A DNA stretch of 64,000 nucleotides from Parelaphostrongylus tenuis (taxonomy: Eukaryota; Nematoda; Chromadorea; Rhabditida; Metastrongylidae), in NCBI GenBank assembly GCA_019055375.1, contig JAHQIW010000700.1, positions 18,262 to 82,261 on the forward strand, written 5' to 3'. A program made the translations under genes and the position numbers. Under the pieces are notes generated by a model. It was not told the origin of the DNA and searched no databases. It saw only the letters and a list, made by a program, of their open reading frames with translations. This document shows positions 27,722 through 52,450 of the stretch, piece after piece; the stretch's first letter is position 1; every line of letters begins with the position of its first letter.

Positions 27722-27830
27722 CCAATCCCAGTGGTGTAGCGGTAGCACGCGTCCTCGGTATGGATGAAATGCGAGTTCAACTCCTGTCTGAGGCCAAATT
27801 TTTGGCTACCACTTGATTCTCTTAAGTAAA
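27722..27830 (+). repeat. tRNA-derived SINE, family A
   Basis: CAGTGGTGTAGCGGTAGCAC (A-box-like) and GCGAGTTCAACTCCTG (B-box-like) are followed by the CACTTGATTCTCTTA tail shared with 28.45 kb. Confidence 0.65.
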
Positions 27831-28446: not shown

Positions 28447-28555
28447 GTGGCTAGGTGGTGTAGTGGTGGAGCACGCGTCCCCGGATAAGATGAAACGCGG
28501 GTTCGATTCTCGCCTGAGGCAATTTTCTGCTCACCACTCAATTCTCTTAGTTATA
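28447..28555 (+). repeat. tRNA-derived SINE, family A
   Basis: GGTGGTGTAGTGGTGGAGCA and GCGGGTTCGATTCTCGCC form clear pol III A/B boxes; the tail is CACTCAATTCTCTTA. It does not fold as a complete tRNA, so it is scored as a SINE. Confidence 0.7.
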
Positions 28556-30759: not shown

Positions 30760-31507
30760 TCACCTGTCGTCCCGTTGATCGTCGAATGACTCGAGCGGGT
30801 ACCAGCAACTCTTCCATTTTTCCCTATCGCGTGCAAGAGTAGCCCAGTGGGTCCTCCTCGCTCTAGGAATTCGCTGAGCATCATATCTTTCTTCCATCGC
30901 TTTCGTGAAGAAATCGGACCAACGGGTCAGTGGTCTTCCTTTAGAGCTCTTGACGTCCCGAGGAATCCAGTCGGTAAGGGCTCTCGTCCATCGGTTGTCG
31001 TTGAAGCGCATCACGTGTCCGGCCCACCTTATTTTCGATATCCTGGCGTGTAGAACGCGTCTGTGTTTTTCGATCTTTGACATAGGTCGGAACTTCGGAT
31101 CCTTTGTCTCAGCGGATCAGCATCGACCTTTCGACTGCGCGTTCGACAACTCTAAGTGATCTTTCATCCTGTTTACGTAGCGACCAGATTTTTGCGCATA
31201 CGTTAGGGCAGGGATAATTGTCGAGTCGAAAAGGTGGGCACGGAGTCGGATGTTCTTTGTCCTCTTCACTACATCTTCGACGCTCTTAAACGTTCCCCAA
31301 GCCGCTCGTTTCCTCCTGCTCAACTCTGGGGCTAGGTCGTTCATCCTGTTGATTTCATCACCTAAATAGACGTAACTGGAGAATTCGGAGATTTTCGTTC
31401 CGTTGAGCGTGAATGGGGCATTCGAAACCCATCCGTTCCTCATGAACATTGTTTTTGTTAGATTTAGTTGAAGACCAATCTTTCCACAGGCGTCATCGAA
31501 ATCGGTC
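30760..31507 (-). mobile_element. 5'-truncated RTE-type LINE insertion with 12-bp target-site duplication
   Basis: The minus strand encodes the C-terminal part of the RTE protein in two frames (31117-31572: [38 protein letters not shown]; 30760-31083: VMRFNDNRWTRALTDWIP to DDQRDDR). AGGAAGCCTGTA is duplicated at 30748-30759 and 31508-31519. At 748 bp with a frameshift it is dead. It sits between the two fold-back arms. Confidence 0.9.
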
Positions 31508-31821
31508 AGGAAGCCTGTAGAATATAAGAATTGGAACAGTACACACGAAAACTTCATTAGCCTGCGAACCATTTGAAAGCACTAAATATCGCTGACGCGA
31601 TGTCGTAAGAGCGATATAAGATTGATCGATCATAGCCTCAGCGCACGTGGCCACCTCAGCCAGCGGCACGTGATTTAGCCAAAGACCCTTTGAATACTTT
31701 GAAGAGGGAGCTCTGTCCGGCGAGGTGTAAAAGGCAAATCTTTTCTTTCTCCTGCAGCGCTATCATTAAAATTTTTCTCTAAGAAGCGAACACATTTACG
31801 AGTTCTTCGAGACTTGTGCTA

Positions 31822-35100: not shown

Positions 35101-38100
35101 TCGTCCTACGACTTTGTGCTACTGTCCGCCAACTTTTGGATCTGACTGAAGAGCCATTCCTTTGACTTCGAATTGAAGAACTCGGGACATGCTTCTTCAA
35201 CTTCATCGAATGGTTGAAATCGGCAACCCTTTAAAAGTGTTACATTGATCGGAAAGGCCAAAGTTGGATGGTACGCAATTTGTACTGTATGAGGGATGCG
35301 GCAGAATCTCGACTCCGTCCAATCCATCAAACTTGTCTTTGGTCTTTTAGCAGTGTGCTGTCTGGCATTGTCTTGCTGCATCAAAACGCACTTTCGATTG
35401 ACCAAGGCCGGGTACTTCTTGAGCTTGTCGTAGACTAGACTTAATTGTTGTTGTTCGTCGTTCGGAACTAACTCAAAATGCAGGACTCCTTCAAAATTTC
35501 ACCAAACGCGCATCATGTCCTTCTTGCCAAATCAAACCGCGCAATGAAACACGAACTTTCATTGTATCGTTGCACATGGCGGAGGCTTGTAAGGAAGTGA
35601 AAATAAATATTATTCAGGCCTTCATTAAGGGTATCTCTCATTGGAAACTGTGATATTCCAATGATATGCGTAGGAGTTATCTAATGCTGATTGAAGTGCT
35701 CCAGAACTTTCTTTCCAACCGTAGTAAATATTCGTGCCGACAATATGGAATTCAGGTGCTGCATCGTGTTATTACAAATCAACTCGCTCTTTCACTCCAC
35801 AAAGATACCCTACTATCGTGGGTTCCCAGTAACATTCCTGTGGCTATGGAAGTCGATACAAAGCTTGCGCCTACATCGTCTACGCCAACTGTTAAGTGAG
35901 TTTGCACTTGAAGCGACTGATGTTTGAATGTGGTGGTTATCTTTGTGACAGTGTGTCGTGCAGTGGTTAGAGGTGCTCTCTGGTACAAACGTGGTCGACC
36001 AATCGATGGTTGATGGTTCGATTTCTCGTTTGAGGTTCACCAAGCTTTTCATTCCTTTGGAGACGGCCAGTTGGTACCAGGCTTGCCTGGGATAATAGCA
36101 ACGCTGACTTCACACATCAGTAAGCCACCGTGAGTCACAGTGAAGGCCAGATATGCATTCAGTCGCCTCTAACGATGCGAAATGAAGACCAATGCATGAC
36201 ACATCTCTCAGGGATCGATCAGTTCCGAGACTTTTTTTGAAAATTGTCCTACTGCTTGTTATTAACGTGTTTTTAGATCTCCCCGTCCCTCTCGCAAAGT
36301 CGCGCAAACTCCATCTCCAGAGTCAGAACTTTACATTCATCTTCTTGTTTTGCTTCATCTGGTCGACATGAAGAAGCTTGATGAAGCAAAGAAATGCGCA
36401 GAATTATTGATATCTCGTGGTAAGTGAAGCTACTTCTAGAACTAATCTCCTATTGCCAGATGTTTTAAATCTCTTATTTTTTTTACATAGTTTGTAGATT
36501 TTAGAACTTTTACAGCTGACTCATTCGATAAGCGCTCACTGGATCCCATTGTCGCCAAGGCCATATTTTACTTAGCTCTCATTTATGAAAGACAACAAAA
36601 GTTGCATGAACTCGGCTGGTGAGCTAGAATTCATAATTATTAAGGCCATCAAATTGTATTGTTCCGGCAGAGCTCAACCTTTTTCAACTTCATAAGCTTT
36701 CAGTTTCTTTAATTCACGACTTCGTACTGCTACGCTTCGACATCAGAGAGAGTCCCAAGCTGTCTTAATCTACACACTTCTACGTTGCTATTTAATCAAC
36801 AAGCAGTTTCAGTCAGCAGCGAAACTCGTTTCAAAGGTGAGGACATTTATTGTAAAGGTATAATCCATAGAGAGGAAATGTGTTCGTCATTGTTATTCAT
36901 CGGCAGTGGATTGTTCATCAGGGTTTTCGTGCTATCTTTTTATGTAATGAACATTATTTCAGGTTACTTTTCCTGAAGGAGCTAGTAATAATGATCTTGC
37001 CCGTTACCTGTATTATCAGGGTCGTATAAAAGCACTTCAGCTTGATTATACTGCTGCTGCTGGATATTTTCTGCAGGTAAAAGCGCAAGTACTTCGCTAT
37101 CTTATATATGTTTACATATGTATATACATATATATGTGCGTATATACGTGTACATATACATATGAACATGCATATGTGGTATGTATGTATATGCATCTAT
37201 GCATGCCGACAACTTTAGTGATAAGAATCCATATATACATATATTTCTACATGTATATGTATACATACATATGTACACGTACGTTTACACTTGTATGTGT
37301 ATAGGTGTATTCGCATGCATGCATATATATATACATATATACGTATATATGTATATATTTATATATGTTTCCTGTGTACATACGTACATGTACATAGTGC
37401 ATGTATGTATACATATGTATGCACATTTCACTATTTTTGCGTGACCTCTCTTCACAATTTACTGTGCGTATCTCAGCGCTTGCATTCGCTTCGTTCCCAC
37501 AGATTCATTCTCCACAAAGGTCTTTGAACACTTTACGTGTTGCGTCGCTTGCTGCCCGAGGAGTTCTTCTTTGTCGATGACGGACAATGCTGTTAGGGTC
37601 GATTCTCTTCGTAATCTCGGAACTAGCCTATCTAAGGTGTTCGTTGATTGGTTGAAGGAGAGTGTTTGGTGAGAGGGTCGAACCAGCGCCTTACTTGTCA
37701 CTTTTGTTTCGTGACGCACCGCATCACTGATTACTGCGCTACCTTGTTCTCATATGTATACATAAAAAGTCCAACTCACACTGGCAAAGTTTGATTCTCC
37801 ATTCATTTTTGTCACTTGCCTAAGTTATTCAGGAAGTATTTCACGATTTCGAAGAGCACAATGTTTTGCTCAAGACCTTCATAAACAATACCAATCATTG
37901 ACTCGGTCGTCTTTTATTTGTGTACGTGACGTTCCATACGACTTAGTTGCTCATGCTTTTTGTTATTGTTTTTAACTAAGATACATCAATATTGAGCTCA
38001 GTCCGCTTACGAAATCTTGCCTTTTATCACACGTCCTTTGTCCATTGTTTTAGTTTTAGGTTATTGTTTTGTCTTATTTGCGAATTTTGTATTTCTTCTT

Positions 38101-41100
38101 TCGCTTACGATCTATAGATCTACAAGGGCAGTGGGGAGCACTGTAACATGATTCCGCTTACGTACAATGTTCCCGACGCTAGTGTTCTGGCGAAGAGATG
38201 GTGGAGTCGAGGAAGGACAGGGAGTCATTTGTCTTTTTTGCAAAATCCTCGAAGTATGTTGATAAAAGAGTCCGTCTCTTGTCAACTTCGAATCTACGTA
38301 GTGTGATAGTTAGTTCAGAAAGGAGCATTTATCCTGATATCTGATAATTTAAATAGGATAGATTATTTTTTCTTTTTTTTTTACCGTTTCTTACATTCAC
38401 ATAGTGTGGGATTTTGGTAAAGTGCTTATTGTGAGGAATTTGCTGAACTTGATGATATGTCCATAAATAGAGTACGAGTGGCGCTGTGAGAGACGTGTCG
38501 TTTGCTATGCGTAAGGCTCTTGTATGATCTCGTACTGGTCATCCGAGCTTCTAGTTTCTTCAAAATCGAAAATTGATTCGGATTTGCTTGAAAAGAGCTC
38601 TCAGGAATCCACCAAGGGATGGTGATTGCTTGCGGTGAAGACTGAGAAGACTCCTTAGTTTTGATGTACCAAGATGTCGTCACCTATTCAACCCTTTCGT
38701 CCGACCTAACCAAGTTCTACAGTCGTCCCAAGTATGCAGGTTAACTTTCGATTCGGACTTCTGTTCAACCTCATCGTGGATGGTCAATATTCTGCTTCTA
38801 TTGATGAGCTAGCACAAGGCTTCTATGAGTCTCCATTCTGATGGGTAACGTTCCAATGGCTCGCCTTCATCGGAGCCACGATTATTCTAGCTAGATATCC
38901 ACAGCAATTGTTTTTTTGTCCGATGATGCTTTTTGTAGCCGTCTCATCGAGACGAATCGAGTAAAGTGGATCACCGAATCAATGAATGGCGCACCTAGCC
39001 TTACCTTCTATACGGCACTCCGGCTGTGCTAGATCAAATAAGATCATTTGACAATTCCCCTAGTGCCGTCCTCTGTCGTGAAGAACCGCCAAATGATGCT
39101 TGGTCACTTCAATCACCTGTATCACCTGTCGTCCCGTTGATCGTCGAGTGACTCGAGCGGGTACCAGCAACTCTTCCATTTTCCCCTATCGCGTGCAAGA
39201 GTAGCCCAGTGGGTCCTCCTTGCTCTAGGAATTCGCTGAGCATCATATCTTTCTTCCATCGCTTTCGTGAAGAAATCGGACCAACGGGTCAGTGGTCTTC
39301 CTTTAGAGCGCTTGATGTCCCGAGAAACTCAATCTGTAACGTCTTTCGTCCATCGGTTGTCAATGAAACTCATCACGTGTACGGCCCACGTTGTTTTCGA
39401 TATCATGTTGTATAGAATGGAATCTGTAATCTTCGACCGTTGACGTAGGTCGGCACTTCGAATCCTTTCACTCATTTGCGAGATACGAGATACTCCTAGC
39501 ATCGACCTTTCGACTGCGTGTTCAATAACGGCAAGTGATCTTTCATCCTGCTTACGTAGCGACCAGGTTTCTGCTGCATACGTTAGGGCAGGGATAATTG
39601 TCGAGTCGGAAAGGTGGGCACGGAGTCGGATGTTCTTTGTCCTCTTCACTACATCTTCGATGCTCTTAAACGTTCCCCAAGCCGCTCGTTTCCTCCTGCT
39701 CAACTCTGGGGCTAGGTCGTTCATCATGTTGATTTCACGACCTAGATAGATGTAACTGGAGCATTCGGAAATTGTCGTTCCGTTGAGCGTGAATGGGGCA
39801 TTAGAAACCCATCCGTTCCTCATGAACATTGTTTTCGTTAGATTCAGTTGAAGACCGATCTTTCCACAGGCGTTATCGAAATCATTCAACATTCGTTCCG
39901 CTTGGCTGATGTTTGGTGTTATGAGAACGATATCGTCAGCAAAGCGAAGATGGTTTAATTGTCGACCGTCAATTTTCACTCCCATTTCGTCCCATTCTAA
40001 TGTTCGCATGACGTTTTGTAGGGTGGCAGTGAATAGTTTTGGCGATATTGTATCGCCTTGTCGAACCCCTCTTCTTACGTCAATGGTGATATTGTTGTAG
40101 AATGGAGATATTCTGGTCGTGAAATCTTTATAAAGCTCACGAAGGATCATTATGTACCGAGTAGGGACGCCATGGTTATCCAGAGCCTCTATAACCGCTT
40201 CTGTTTCCACTGAATCAAAGGCTTTTTTCAGATCGATGAAATAAAAGACAGAGTGGTTGTTTGTACTCTCGCGAAACTTCAATGAGTCTTGTGATCGTGT
40301 GGATGTGGTCCATGGTACTAAATCCTTTTCTGAACCCTGCTTGTTCGCATGGCTGTCCTTCGTCCAGTGTTCTGTCAATCCTGTTCAGGATGACTCGAGT
40401 AAAGAGTTTATAGACAACGGACAGCAAGCAGATTGGGCGATAATTGCCTATGTCGTGAAGGTCTCCCTTTTTGAACAACAATACGGTCTTGCTGGTTTTC
40501 CATTGAATAGGGACCTTGCATTCTGACAGGTAGCGAGTGAAGAGCCGAGCCAGGGTGTTGATGAGAACTGGCGGCAGATTCTTCAGATGTTCTGGTCTAA
40601 TCCTGTCTGGACCGGGTGTTGTTCTGTTTTTCACCGACGATATAGCATGTCGGATTTCGGAAGGAAGGACCGGTGGAACGACATATTCGTCCTCTTTCAA
40701 TTTATATGACGGTAAGAGAACATGGCTAGCGAAGAGATCCGAGTAGTACTGGTGGATGATTTTCTCCATAGCCCTTCTGGAAGCTGTAAGTGTCCCGTCA
40801 GGGTATCGATACCCTGACGGGTCACTTCAATATGGCTGGAATATCGTATAAAATGGTAACGCTGAGGGTGCTACTTCGTTACTGCGGTGATCCGCTCTAC
40901 TCGACTTGTCTCGATGCGTTGGCTGCGAAGACAAACATCGCAAGAGCAACTGCTGCTAACACTCGACTCAAATCATTGTGGCTTCAATGAAGGAAAAATC
41001 CCCTAAATGTTAGTCCTAATAATTAGGAGTTGTAATAACTTGGCGTTAACGACTAAGCGATTTGAATGCAAAAACCACTGGGATCCGTACAATAATTGTG

Positions 41101-46750: not shown

Positions 46751-46792
46751 ACTGATCTGTTAAATATGACATATTTTGAGGTGATAGGTCTA

Positions 46793-46840
46793 GTGCTATA
46801 TAGGCGCCTATTTCGTCCTATTGGGACTCATCAGTAGCAC
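46793..46840 (-). ncRNA. hammerhead ribozyme, type I, copy 1 (predicted active)
   Basis: Minus-strand order 5' to 3': stem I strand GUGCUA; core CUGAUGA; stem II GUCC with loop CAAUA and GGAC; core GAA; palindromic stem III AUAGGCGCCUAU; cleavage base A17; stem I strand UAGCAC. Stems I and II pair perfectly and all conserved core bases are present. Cleavage is predicted after the A preceding UAGCAC (plus coordinate 46799). Stem III can form only about four pairs with a GCGC loop in a monomer, but 12 in a dimer. Confidence 0.88.
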
Positions 46841-47078
46841 CCTCTCTCGGTTCCGTCGATCCCTTGAGGTGAAATAATCCTCTAAAGGAATCGACGCCGA
46901 GTAAAAAACTAAGCACCCAAAGTAGGATGATGGTATTACCTGACTTTGTGGTGACCGGCAGTCGAGCTTGCGGCTTTTAGAATGAACCATACCTCTGCTA
47001 TCGACCGCTCTTTTACAGAGCCGCTCAAAGTGATTTAATCTGATAAGGATATGACATATTTTTGAGCCGATAGGTCTA

Positions 47079-47126
47079 GTGCTATATAGGCGCCTATTTC
47101 GTCCTATTGGGACTCGTCACTAGCAC
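47079..47126 (-). ncRNA. hammerhead ribozyme motif, copy 2 (core mutation, predicted inactive)
   Basis: Stems I, II and III are identical to copy 1, but the core reads GUGACGA instead of CUGANGA. C3 has become G without compensation at G8, which should abolish the essential C3-G8 pair. Confidence 0.82.
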
Positions 47127-47362
47127 CCTCCCTCGGTTCCGTCGATCCCTTGAGGTGGAATAATCCTCTAAAGGAATCGACGCCGAGTAAAAACTAAGCA
47201 CCCAAAGTAGGATGATGGTATTACCTGACTTTGTGGTGACCGGCAGTCGAGCTTGCGGCTTTTAGAATGAACCATACCTCTGCTGTCGACCGCTCTTTTA
47301 CAGACCCGCTCAAAATGATCTAATCTGATAAGGATATGACATATCCTGAGCCTATAGGTCTA

Positions 47363-47410
47363 GTGCTATATAGGCGCCTATTTCGTCGTATTGAGACTCA
47401 TCAGTAGCAT
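47363..47410 (-). ncRNA. hammerhead ribozyme, type I, copy 3 (core intact, weaker stems)
   Basis: The core CUGAUGA and GAA are intact. Stem II (GUCU, loop CAAUA, CGAC) loses its loop-proximal pair, and stem I has one terminal A-C mismatch. Its 5' end coincides with the edge of the insertion. Confidence 0.82.
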
Positions 47411-47420
47411 CTGATCTGTT

Positions 47421-47740: not shown

Positions 47741-47741
47741 T

Positions 47742-48557
47742 TCTGTTCTGTTATGAGAGACATATGAAAACCGACTTCATTCGCTCAATGGGAACCTTTT
47801 ATAGAAGTGCTAGTAACCATTAGAAAATTGAGACTTCAGGTTACAGCCCCACTTAGCCGGTTTTTCAAACACCCTTTTATAACGCTGTAAAATCCACACA
47901 AAACTATGTCTCGGACGCGCATAAATTTCACCAAACAGAGCTCTTTTTTGGACTATCGATGATCATTCGATAACGTAATCGTTGTTGATTCCAATGTTGT
48001 GCTTATATGCTGGAAAGATCGTTTTTTCTGCAACGCAGCAGGTAAAATAAGTTGAATTCGATGTGTGAGCAAGGTGGCCATTGGCCAATTATCGCGCCAG
48101 CAGGTGAGGCGACCGCGTTCGATGGCACGATGGTCATTGATTTTTCGGGCATATGAACGTGTAGAGGGAAAACGCGTCAGCAGTCCACTTGGTCGCCTCA
48201 CGCGTCGACACGTGGATTGGCCAAAGACTCTTGCTCACAAAGCGAATTCGACTTATTTTACCTGTTGCTTTGGAGAAAAACGCTCTTTTCGGCATATAAG
48301 CACAGCGTTGGAATCAAGTTCAATAACGCCATCTAATGACTACTAATATTCCAAAGAGAGCTCAGTCCGGGAAAAAATATGCGCGTCTGCAACGCAGGAT
48401 CTCCCTCTGTAACAACATAAAAAGGCTTTTTTGAAAACCGGTCACGTGGGACTATAGTCTGATGTGTCTTTCGATTGGCTAACAAGACTCCTATGAAAAG
48501 TTTTTGTTCAGCGAATGAGGTCGGTTTTTGATTTGCACTCTCATAACCGAATAGAAT
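47742..48557. mobile_element. fold-back (long inverted repeat) DNA element, about 816 bp
   Basis: Arms of about 370 bp face each other around a spacer of about 70 bp. Mirrored landmarks: TGTTATGAGAG with CTCTCATAAC, TCCAATGTTGTGCTTATATG with CATATAAGCACAGCGTTGGA, and GGTAAAATAAGTTGAATTCG with CGAATTCGACTTATTTTACC. It encodes no protein. Arm sequences recur at 30.37, 31.82 and 63.48 kb, so this is a dispersed family. Confidence 0.8.
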
Positions 48558-51973: not shown

Positions 51974-52057
51974 TTGTCAGATGTATTTCACCGACAAAAG
52001 ATTGTCAGATGTACTTCACCGACAAAAGATTGTCAGATGTACTTCACCGACAAAAGC
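51974..52057. repeat. 28-bp tandem repeat, three copies
   Basis: TTGTCAGATGTACTTCACC with GACAAAAGA is repeated at 51974, 52002 and 52030 with one substitution. Confidence 0.92.
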
Positions 52058-52310
52058 TATTCTCCGTATATTGCCATTGATAATTAATTGAAGTACTACA
52101 ATCACAATTAGCTTGTAACCTAACTTTCCAAAGCCACACCTCTCAGATACAATCCACAACAGCCAACATCTTTCAATACAATCTATCTCTTGCAATCCTG
52201 CACCATTACATACTTAATCTTTGCTTATAATTTTTATAAACCAAATTCTAGGCAGAAACTTTCCTTAATTGGTTGTTTCCTGTCTCAATCTGCTTAATAT
52301 GTGTTGAACA
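52058..52310. other. no gene recognised
   Basis: Short AT-rich spacer. Confidence 0.4.
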
Positions 52311-52450
52311 TCGACGTCGATCCTTCATAGGAGATTATAGCCCCAAGGGATCGGCTGAACCGAGGACGGTGCTACTGAAGAGACCTGGAGGGCGAAATTG
52401 GCGCCTGTCTAACACCTAGACCTAACAAACGATTCGAAATATGTTATGAT
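52311..52450 (+). repeat. solitary, diverged copy of the 285-bp ribozyme unit
   Basis: Aligns with the inverse of the 46.8 kb array across the ribozyme and both sides: CGTCGAT, CAAGGGATCG, GAACCGAG, GGTGCTACTGA, TGGCGCCT, CCTAGACCTA and AAATATGT in the same order. It is incomplete and on the opposite strand. Confidence 0.72.
52369..52415 (+). ncRNA. hammerhead ribozyme motif, diverged single copy
   Basis: Plus-strand order: stem I GUGCUA; core CUGAAGA; stem II GACC with loop UGGA and GGGC (one mismatch); GAA; stem III AUUGGCGCCUGU (one mismatch); C17; stem I UAACAC (one mismatch). The core is consensus, and the cleavage triplet is GUC rather than the array's AUA. Confidence 0.7.

Follow-up and report, generated by a model that had tools for sequence, protein, structure and literature searches.

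A tandem array of hammerhead motifs in a 64-kb stretch of DNA of the nematode Parelaphostrongylus tenuis (the window, analysed here over its whole length) raises the question of how such an array came to be inserted there, by which enzyme, and whether circular RNA could still be released from it. The first-pass annotation had taken the array for an RNA-derived, multimeric, retrozyme-like element in a nematode, and this reading is supported by dispersed units with target-site duplications (TSDs) elsewhere in the genome. The array is best explained as a single insertion from a family of non-autonomous retrozymes that is dispersed through the genome of this metastrongyloid nematode.

The array and its surroundings

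The features of the array and of a second family copy are compiled in Table 1. TRF gives a period of 285, 2.3 copies and 94% matches at positions 46764-47409, by which the 285-bp unit repeated about 2.3 times, as originally described, is borne out. The predicted cleavage sites, after A17 at 47369, 47085 and 46799, delimit units of 284 and 286 nt. The element is a direct, single-orientation copy with the start of reverse transcription at site A (approximately unit nt 34-37; see below). The GC contents of the two full units are 0.45 and 0.48. A single open reading frame of at least 75 aa (102 aa) overlaps the array; it crosses the unit, and a protein search with it returned no homologue. Pol III internal boxes in the unit are not above chance. 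The long hairpin listed in Table 1 recurs in the middle unit, and the diverged copy at 52.3 kb forms it as well.

Table 1. Coordinates of the retrozyme array, its flanking duplications, its hammerheads and the second family copy within the window
Feature	Position	Strand	Details
Retrozyme element	46762..47410	- (sense strand = minus)	2.28 tandem units, 284-286 bp; from TRF, unit mapping and cleavage-site spacing
TSD, left copy	46752..46761	not assigned	10 bp, CTGATCTGTT
TSD, right copy	47411..47420	not assigned	10 bp, CTGATCTGTT
Hammerhead type I, complete	46793..46840	-	stem I 6 bp, stem II 4 bp, stem III 4 bp, GCGC loop
Long hairpin	46854..46896	-	directly 5' of left hammerhead; 11 pairs counted
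Hammerhead type I, C3 to G at 47120	47079..47126	-	reads GUGACGA; predicted inactive; would-be site 47085/47084
Hammerhead type I, element 5' end	47364..47409	-	core intact; stem II 3 bp, stem I 5 bp; predicted site 47369/47368
Second, older family copy	52308..52448	+ (opposite to array)	~77% identity to array

The perfect 10-bp direct repeat reported for the flanks is confirmed, and CTGATCTGTT has no further occurrence in the 64-kb window beyond the two flanks; at random position pairs 649 bp apart, a shared word of at least 10 was met in 5 of 19,353 draws. Unit homology had been said to end exactly at this repeat. The flanking repeat itself agrees with that description, while the edge is less sharp than supposed, the left-end target sequence also resembling the unit (10/12, P ~0.0015). 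Taken singly, this match is striking as a sign of long annealing between target and RNA; over 33 ends of the family, only short matches are claimed. A query of the joined flanks, representing the empty site, found no other copy within the window.

Several further features lie in the neighbourhood. To the right of the array, positions 47741-48556 match their own reverse complement (840 bp, 68%), with additional pieces near 30.4 and 32.0 kb, and look foldback/MITE-like by this arrangement. An exon-like match to the PSMD3 N-terminal repeat (Pfam TPR_PSMD3_N, E 4.8e-15) at 36951-37301 (+) places a piece of a host proteasome gene ~9.5 kb from the array. Two tRNA-like matches at 27725-27795 and 28449-28521 (+), with 30.9 and 30.6 bits just above the Rfam threshold, are possibly tRNA-derived SINEs. 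The frame at 35106-35498 (-), which resembles a mariner-type transposase remnant, has no Pfam match at E 0.01.

Hammerheads of the array

A complete hammerhead had been annotated at every repeat junction. The type I layout on the minus strand, with a helix III of 4 bp closed by a GCGC loop, is indeed found at each of them; complete, however, is the left copy only. The core is intact in two of the three hammerheads. A strict type I descriptor matches two of the three array copies, and all three once G is allowed at C3; it finds no further match in the window and none in 60 simulated 64-kb windows. Pattern scans for hammerheads in viral and bacterial/archaeal contigs found nothing. For the left copy (46840-46793), cleavage is predicted between 46799 and 46798, and the hammerhead fold lies within 0.1-0.7 kcal/mol of the minimum. 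In the right-hand copy (47409-47364), adopting the hammerhead fold within its sequence context costs 5.3 kcal/mol relative to the free minimum. As to the middle copy, exchange of C3 for G abolishes hammerhead cleavage according to the accessible text of PMC11167929.

By covariance scoring the motif is not rejected, albeit at scores under the Rfam threshold: RF00163 (Hammerhead_1) rates the left copy at 29.5 bits and the middle one at 24.5 (E-values in a whole-window scan 0.0034 and 0.15, respectively), both short of the gathering score of 34. The right copy is unmatched by RF00163 and has only a weak match to RF00008 (22 bits). Within the window, no covariation is found among the four copies. 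The predicted type I hammerhead behaviour would rest on the core, the folds and a helix III change described below rather than on the Rfam score.

From these models, efficient cleavage of the window locus is expected at a single site. As the middle ribozyme is predicted to be dead, the most that the window copy would release is a 570-nt dimer, and a 285-nt circle is an unlikely product. The original proposal that this copy can yield circles of ~285 nt is not supported, given the C3-to-G change of the middle hammerhead and the poor folding of the outer copy. Other family members could release unit-length RNA. A double hammerhead may form via a 12-nt helix III palindrome.

The retrozyme family in the genome

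The search covered 481.5 Mb in 5105 contigs. With the unit as query, 2936 first-look candidates were obtained, 40 of which were scored, giving 132 matches; a query with the 52.3-kb copy gave 1384 first-look candidates and a query from one inverted locus 2507 (40 scored in either case), candidates not being equated with confirmed copies. For 47 loci (L001-L047), the pieces were mapped onto unit coordinates that begin at the cleavage site. Nine of them were skipped for overlap or duplication (L019, L022, L024-L027, L030, L032, and L045), and the 38 non-overlapping loci were kept as 38 young elements; these mapped elements are best-scoring matches, not an unselected sample. Pieces below 75% identity, such as L005 368-959 and those that flank the L043 element, were dropped before the counts on the 38 elements. 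An old sample, from a diverged subfamily of greater age, comprises 25 elements from 30 loci, of which L049, L050, L055, L065, and L066 are without a usable element; L049 was excluded from the old hammerhead counts. The unit is thus dispersed and TSDs are present at other loci, which removes the possibility, raised at the outset, that the genome holds this locus only.

Of 65 aligned pieces, 39 exceed one unit, the longest measuring 6.0 units. An array on contig C435 carries seven tandem hammerheads, all with intact cores. Over the 38 young loci, the core is intact in 65 of 79 copies, and in the old sample in 24 of 36. Pair 2 of helix III is U-A in 74/78 young copies and C-G in 28/36 old ones, which amounts to one compensatory pair. 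At free positions, changes from young to old are seen at N7 (U to A in 27/36) and H17 (A to C in 26/36), and at core positions the majority letter is unchanged between the two groups. The intact cores together with the single compensatory helix III pair suggest that the ribozyme is under selection. On sequence criteria, the family is an animal-type retrozyme family.

The second copy in the window (Table 1) scores 131 bits against a model built from these same window copies; the TSD proposed for it is not convincing. About 250 bp to its left, at 51974-52056, a 28-bp unit is present three times with 98% matches.

Insertion scars

TSDs with a score of at least 9 flank 27 of the 38 young elements, the corresponding rate for 760 random flank pairs being 1.05%, and are mostly 9-15 bp long. 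A confident TSD is missing from 11/38 young and from 24/25 old elements (1/25 old elements has one); the scarcity in the old elements is as expected if duplications decay. Both orientations of the unit occur within 23/38 young and 9/25 old elements, and the antisense part stands first in 32/32. The same order is seen in further inverted pairs on contigs C2989, C3332, and C4785, for which places only were recorded. One young element, L036, has a complex -+-+ structure and may represent two insertions.

The outer ends were classed by broad windows, A (35-62) and B (80-112). In the 23 young inverted elements they are A+B in 18, A+other in two, and B+other, B+B (L036), and other+other in one each; by their outer ends, five of the 23 misfit A+B. 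In a permutation over 22 elements, with L036 omitted, the A/B pairing has P = 1e-5. The 15 young direct copies start at A (12), at B (2), or elsewhere (1), with their opposite ends scattered over the unit. Among the old elements, the nine inverted ones have outer ends A+B (3), A+other (4), B+other (1), and other+other (1), and the 16 direct ones start at A (10) or B (6); the weak A+B pairing of the old copies perhaps reflects eroded ends. After trimming of the TSDs, 43 initiation ends from the 27 TSD elements fall to A (26), B (16), and other (1), and the start sites, counted from the cleavage site, range over nt 34-51 for A and nt 87-103 for B. A consensus fold of nt 1-135, built from 20 of 39 young copies, places A inside an apical loop of 28 nt (nt 25-52). 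B falls at the top of the following stem (closed by nt 76-83), where pairing is weak and no clear loop is seen.

At the junctions, target bases match the onward sequence of the unit at frequencies of 0.82, 0.58, 0.67, 0.52, 0.36, 0.58, and 0.52 for positions 1-7, against ~0.28 in the far flank; a maximal-match TSD call may count one or two bases of the unit as target, so that the values at positions 1-2 are inflated and the later ones less so. The profile comprises 33 of the 43 ends, ten with untemplated bases having been excluded. The excess is strongest over the first few bases and weaker up to about position 10, and these matches may be read as short pairing between primer and template.

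Some of the loci are themselves duplicated. Contig C5061 holds the same inverted element with its flanking repeat twice, 30 kb apart (L020 and L032), which is a segmental or assembly duplication. At L043 (1165-2378) and L045 (1245-2458), an inverted retrozyme lies between ~63% identical older pieces in mirror orientation, and each locus looks like a mirror image of the other.

Penelope-like elements and LINEs in the same genome

A search for the GIY-YIG domain yielded 1723 candidates; 150 were scored and all 150 are above the cut-off. RVT_1 and GIY-YIG both exceed the cut-off in one frame in two of the four frames tested (L083 and L090); the reverse transcriptase (RT) of L084 is below the cut-off, and L080 has GIY-YIG alone. 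The combination of RT and GIY-YIG in one predicted frame is the Penelope-like layout.

Penelope elements can carry inverted terminal repeats. In 12 partial loci of this genome the Penelope 3' end is sharp, and four of the 12 contain inverted pieces (L089, L082, L081, and L088, with 30 bp in L088); the antisense piece of L089 begins ~30-45 nt inside the Penelope 3' end. GIY-YIG neighbours within 5 kb are arranged -/+ in 20 cases, -/- in one, +/+ in one, and +/- in none, as counted from positions transcribed by eye. The link to Penelope elements that had been mentioned earlier in general terms is now backed by genomic GIY-YIG elements with the same inverted order. The retrozyme unit has no detectable common sequence with the 12 partial Penelope loci, whose 5' parts were not covered (best E 3.2), and the array has no frame with RT and GIY-YIG. 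The array would be at most a non-autonomous partner of Penelope.

LINEs are likewise represented. With the RT of a LINE of the RTE type as query, 33,359 first-look candidates were obtained, of which 116 were scored; several have open frames of 1004 aa. An apparently intact LINE is present in the genome, and it could act in trans on the retrozyme. The window contains LINE RT pieces at 39329-40826 (-) and 30760-31581 (-), which are taken here to belong to the RTE clade; for the RT frame at 39.3-40.4 kb, the two top-ranking named relatives come from Parelaphostrongylus tenuis, with 93 and 96% identity.

Proposed mechanism and its alternatives

Insertion of the retrozyme would most probably proceed from RNA. 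A multimeric transcript would cleave itself, and the monomer would be closed into a circle. A Penelope-like protein with RT and GIY-YIG domains would cut both target strands ~10-15 bp apart, whereupon each target 3' end would serve as a primer at site A or B of the RNA, aided by a few matching bases. With priming from two ends, usually one at A and the other at B, the joined cDNAs would form an antisense-sense insertion; with priming from one end, the polymerase would travel around the template more than once and leave a direct multimer, which for the window array would mean 2.3 turns from A. Runs of more than one unit would be explained equally well by a multimeric linear template and by a circle. 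The choice of a Penelope-like protein as the mover is inferred from the shared insertion structure, without shared sequence. As a whole, Penelope-type, two-ended, target-primed copying of retrozyme RNA from A and B is considered a probable, if by no means secure, account of the scars. Held more tentatively, with somewhat less than even confidence, is the narrower idea that one RNA circle heals both ends of a Penelope cut, with one start site per target end and copying inward from both sides. The product would be a TSD-flanked inverted pair, the two-hairpin region would serve as a minimal recognition signal for the Penelope RT, and target choice would be tuned by short pairing.

The same scars might be ascribed to an RTE-type LINE that mobilises the retrozyme, the inverted copies being the result of twin priming, with synthesis from the second target end beginning at an internal position of the RNA. 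Twin priming likewise yields an antisense-then-sense order, and many LINE copies with long open frames (up to ~1004 aa) are at hand; what is inverted in twin priming, however, is as a rule another stretch that lies upstream, whereas the outer ends of both the retrozymes and the Penelope loci start at nearby sites. TSDs of ~10-15 bp would be LINE-like, and TSDs of 15 bp are given for Nematostella repeats in the accessible text of PMC4918200. Against this stands that no opposite-strand LINE neighbours within 5 kb were seen by eye among the 116 scored matches. This control is imperfect: inverted 3' ends would escape a query placed mid-frame, whereas GIY-YIG is situated close to the 3' end of Penelope, in the region in which inverted pieces overlap. 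On balance, LINE-driven insertion is rather unlikely. Much less can be said for the notion that the inverted copies are artefacts of assembly or of long reads (palindromic chimaeras) and that direct arrays alone are real. PacBio and Illumina reads underlie the published P. tenuis assembly, if it is the same one (PMC10940269, accessible text), and duplicated loci do occur (L020/L032 and L043/L045); yet artefacts would yield neither TSDs at the outer ends, nor one and the same order in 32/32, nor A-B pairing, which makes this explanation very improbable.

Two further readings dispense with the germ-line retroelement altogether, and both are given almost no credence. The first, in whose favour arrays of the C435 type with at least six near-identical tandem units could be quoted, would see in the array an ordinary satellite or a tandem duplication of DNA that carries a hammerhead-like motif and involved no RNA step; it is at odds with TSDs at 27/38 elements, with dispersed short copies, with preferred starts combined with scattered other ends, and with the compensatory change in helix III. 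The other would regard the copies as relics of a viroid-like or delta-like RNA replicon with RNA-to-RNA copying. Unit size and hammerhead would fit such a replicon, as would circle folds that are stabler than those of shuffled sequences (sense strand, z -4.0 and -3.1; opposite strand, z -2.7 and -2.9). The paired bases in the predicted circle folds, however, amount to only 59-64%, against an average of 58% in random windows, the type I descriptor finds no hammerhead when the array is read in the opposite polarity, and the copy number, the TSDs and the existence of a younger and an older subfamily are in keeping with germ-line retroelements.

Comparison with known systems

Animal retrozymes and their proposed mobilisation by Penelope are already known (PMC7229834 and PMC7761336, accessible texts). 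The former proposes LINEs or Penelope-like elements as movers, with priming by the DNA target or by small RNA, and describes animal non-LTR retrozymes as tandem units of ~150-450 bp, from dimers to multimers. The present family resembles them, as far as that text goes, in its type I hammerhead, its tandem units of ~285 bp, TSDs of more than 4 bp, and the co-occurrence of Penelope-like elements. Its GC contents of 0.45 and 0.48 lie below the 50% limit in the text of PMC7229834, but not clearly below the 45% of its Figure 1 legend, and no coding capacity is apparent from the one 102-aa frame. It differs from the animal retrozymes of Cervera & de la Pena 2020 (PMC7229834) in its nematode host and in that circles are here predicted. 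It differs, furthermore, in that most mapped young copies are inverted with two preferred starts, the words "inverted" and "inversion" being absent from the main text of that paper; in PMC7761336, "inverted" occurs only in a reference title.

The closest parallel to the scars is the Penelope protein PAc of Anolis (Frangieh 2024, PMC11167929), which, by the accessible text, carries out extension on both strands of the target, from two RNA start sites that adjoin one another. Two adjacent internal starts are common to both systems (with a "tail" of 30-40 bp between them in PAc and ~46 nt apart here), as are a stem-loop start and the extension of both target strands, which for the retrozymes would follow from the scars. 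In PAc, according to the same source, no difference in start site is seen between the strands and no homology between start and target, unlike the inverted young copies, in which mostly one site per end is used and short junction matches are seen. The retrozyme also differs from Penelope elements with minimal hammerheads, as far as these are described in the accessible literature, in having no protein and a complete type I hammerhead with helix III.

Among other hammerhead-bearing repeats, the schistosome Sm-alpha and W-elements (PMC8490949, accessible text) are likewise worm repeats, some of them with type I hammerheads, and a possible TSD is given for one W-element. They belong to another phylum, and a tRNA part is reported for them in the accessible text of PMC4918200, whereas the present unit has no Pol III boxes above chance. 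Plant LTR retrozymes, in the description of that same text, share the flanking hammerheads, the non-autonomous nature and the circular-RNA model; they have type III hammerheads, LTR, PBS, and PPT, and 4-bp TSDs. The array, in contrast, has type I topology, no LTR is seen, and TSDs are mostly 9-15 bp.

Significance

In the open papers searched, no nematode retrozyme was found, with the proviso that key papers of 2010 and 2014 could contain a nematode hammerhead. Nematodes go unmentioned in the main texts of PMC7229834, PMC7761336, PMC4918200, PMC6155905, PMC3088659, and PMC11721086; the accessible text of PMC11620745 mentions them for HDV-like ribozymes and not for hammerheads. Within the limits of these open-paper searches, retrozymes are extended to nematodes. 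The scars bear on two questions, namely, which enzyme spreads animal retrozymes and how the circles are primed. They suggest target priming that begins at two defined positions on the RNA, an arrangement that is common to the Penelope elements of the genome, and the family provides a naturally replicated data set for Penelope-type integration.
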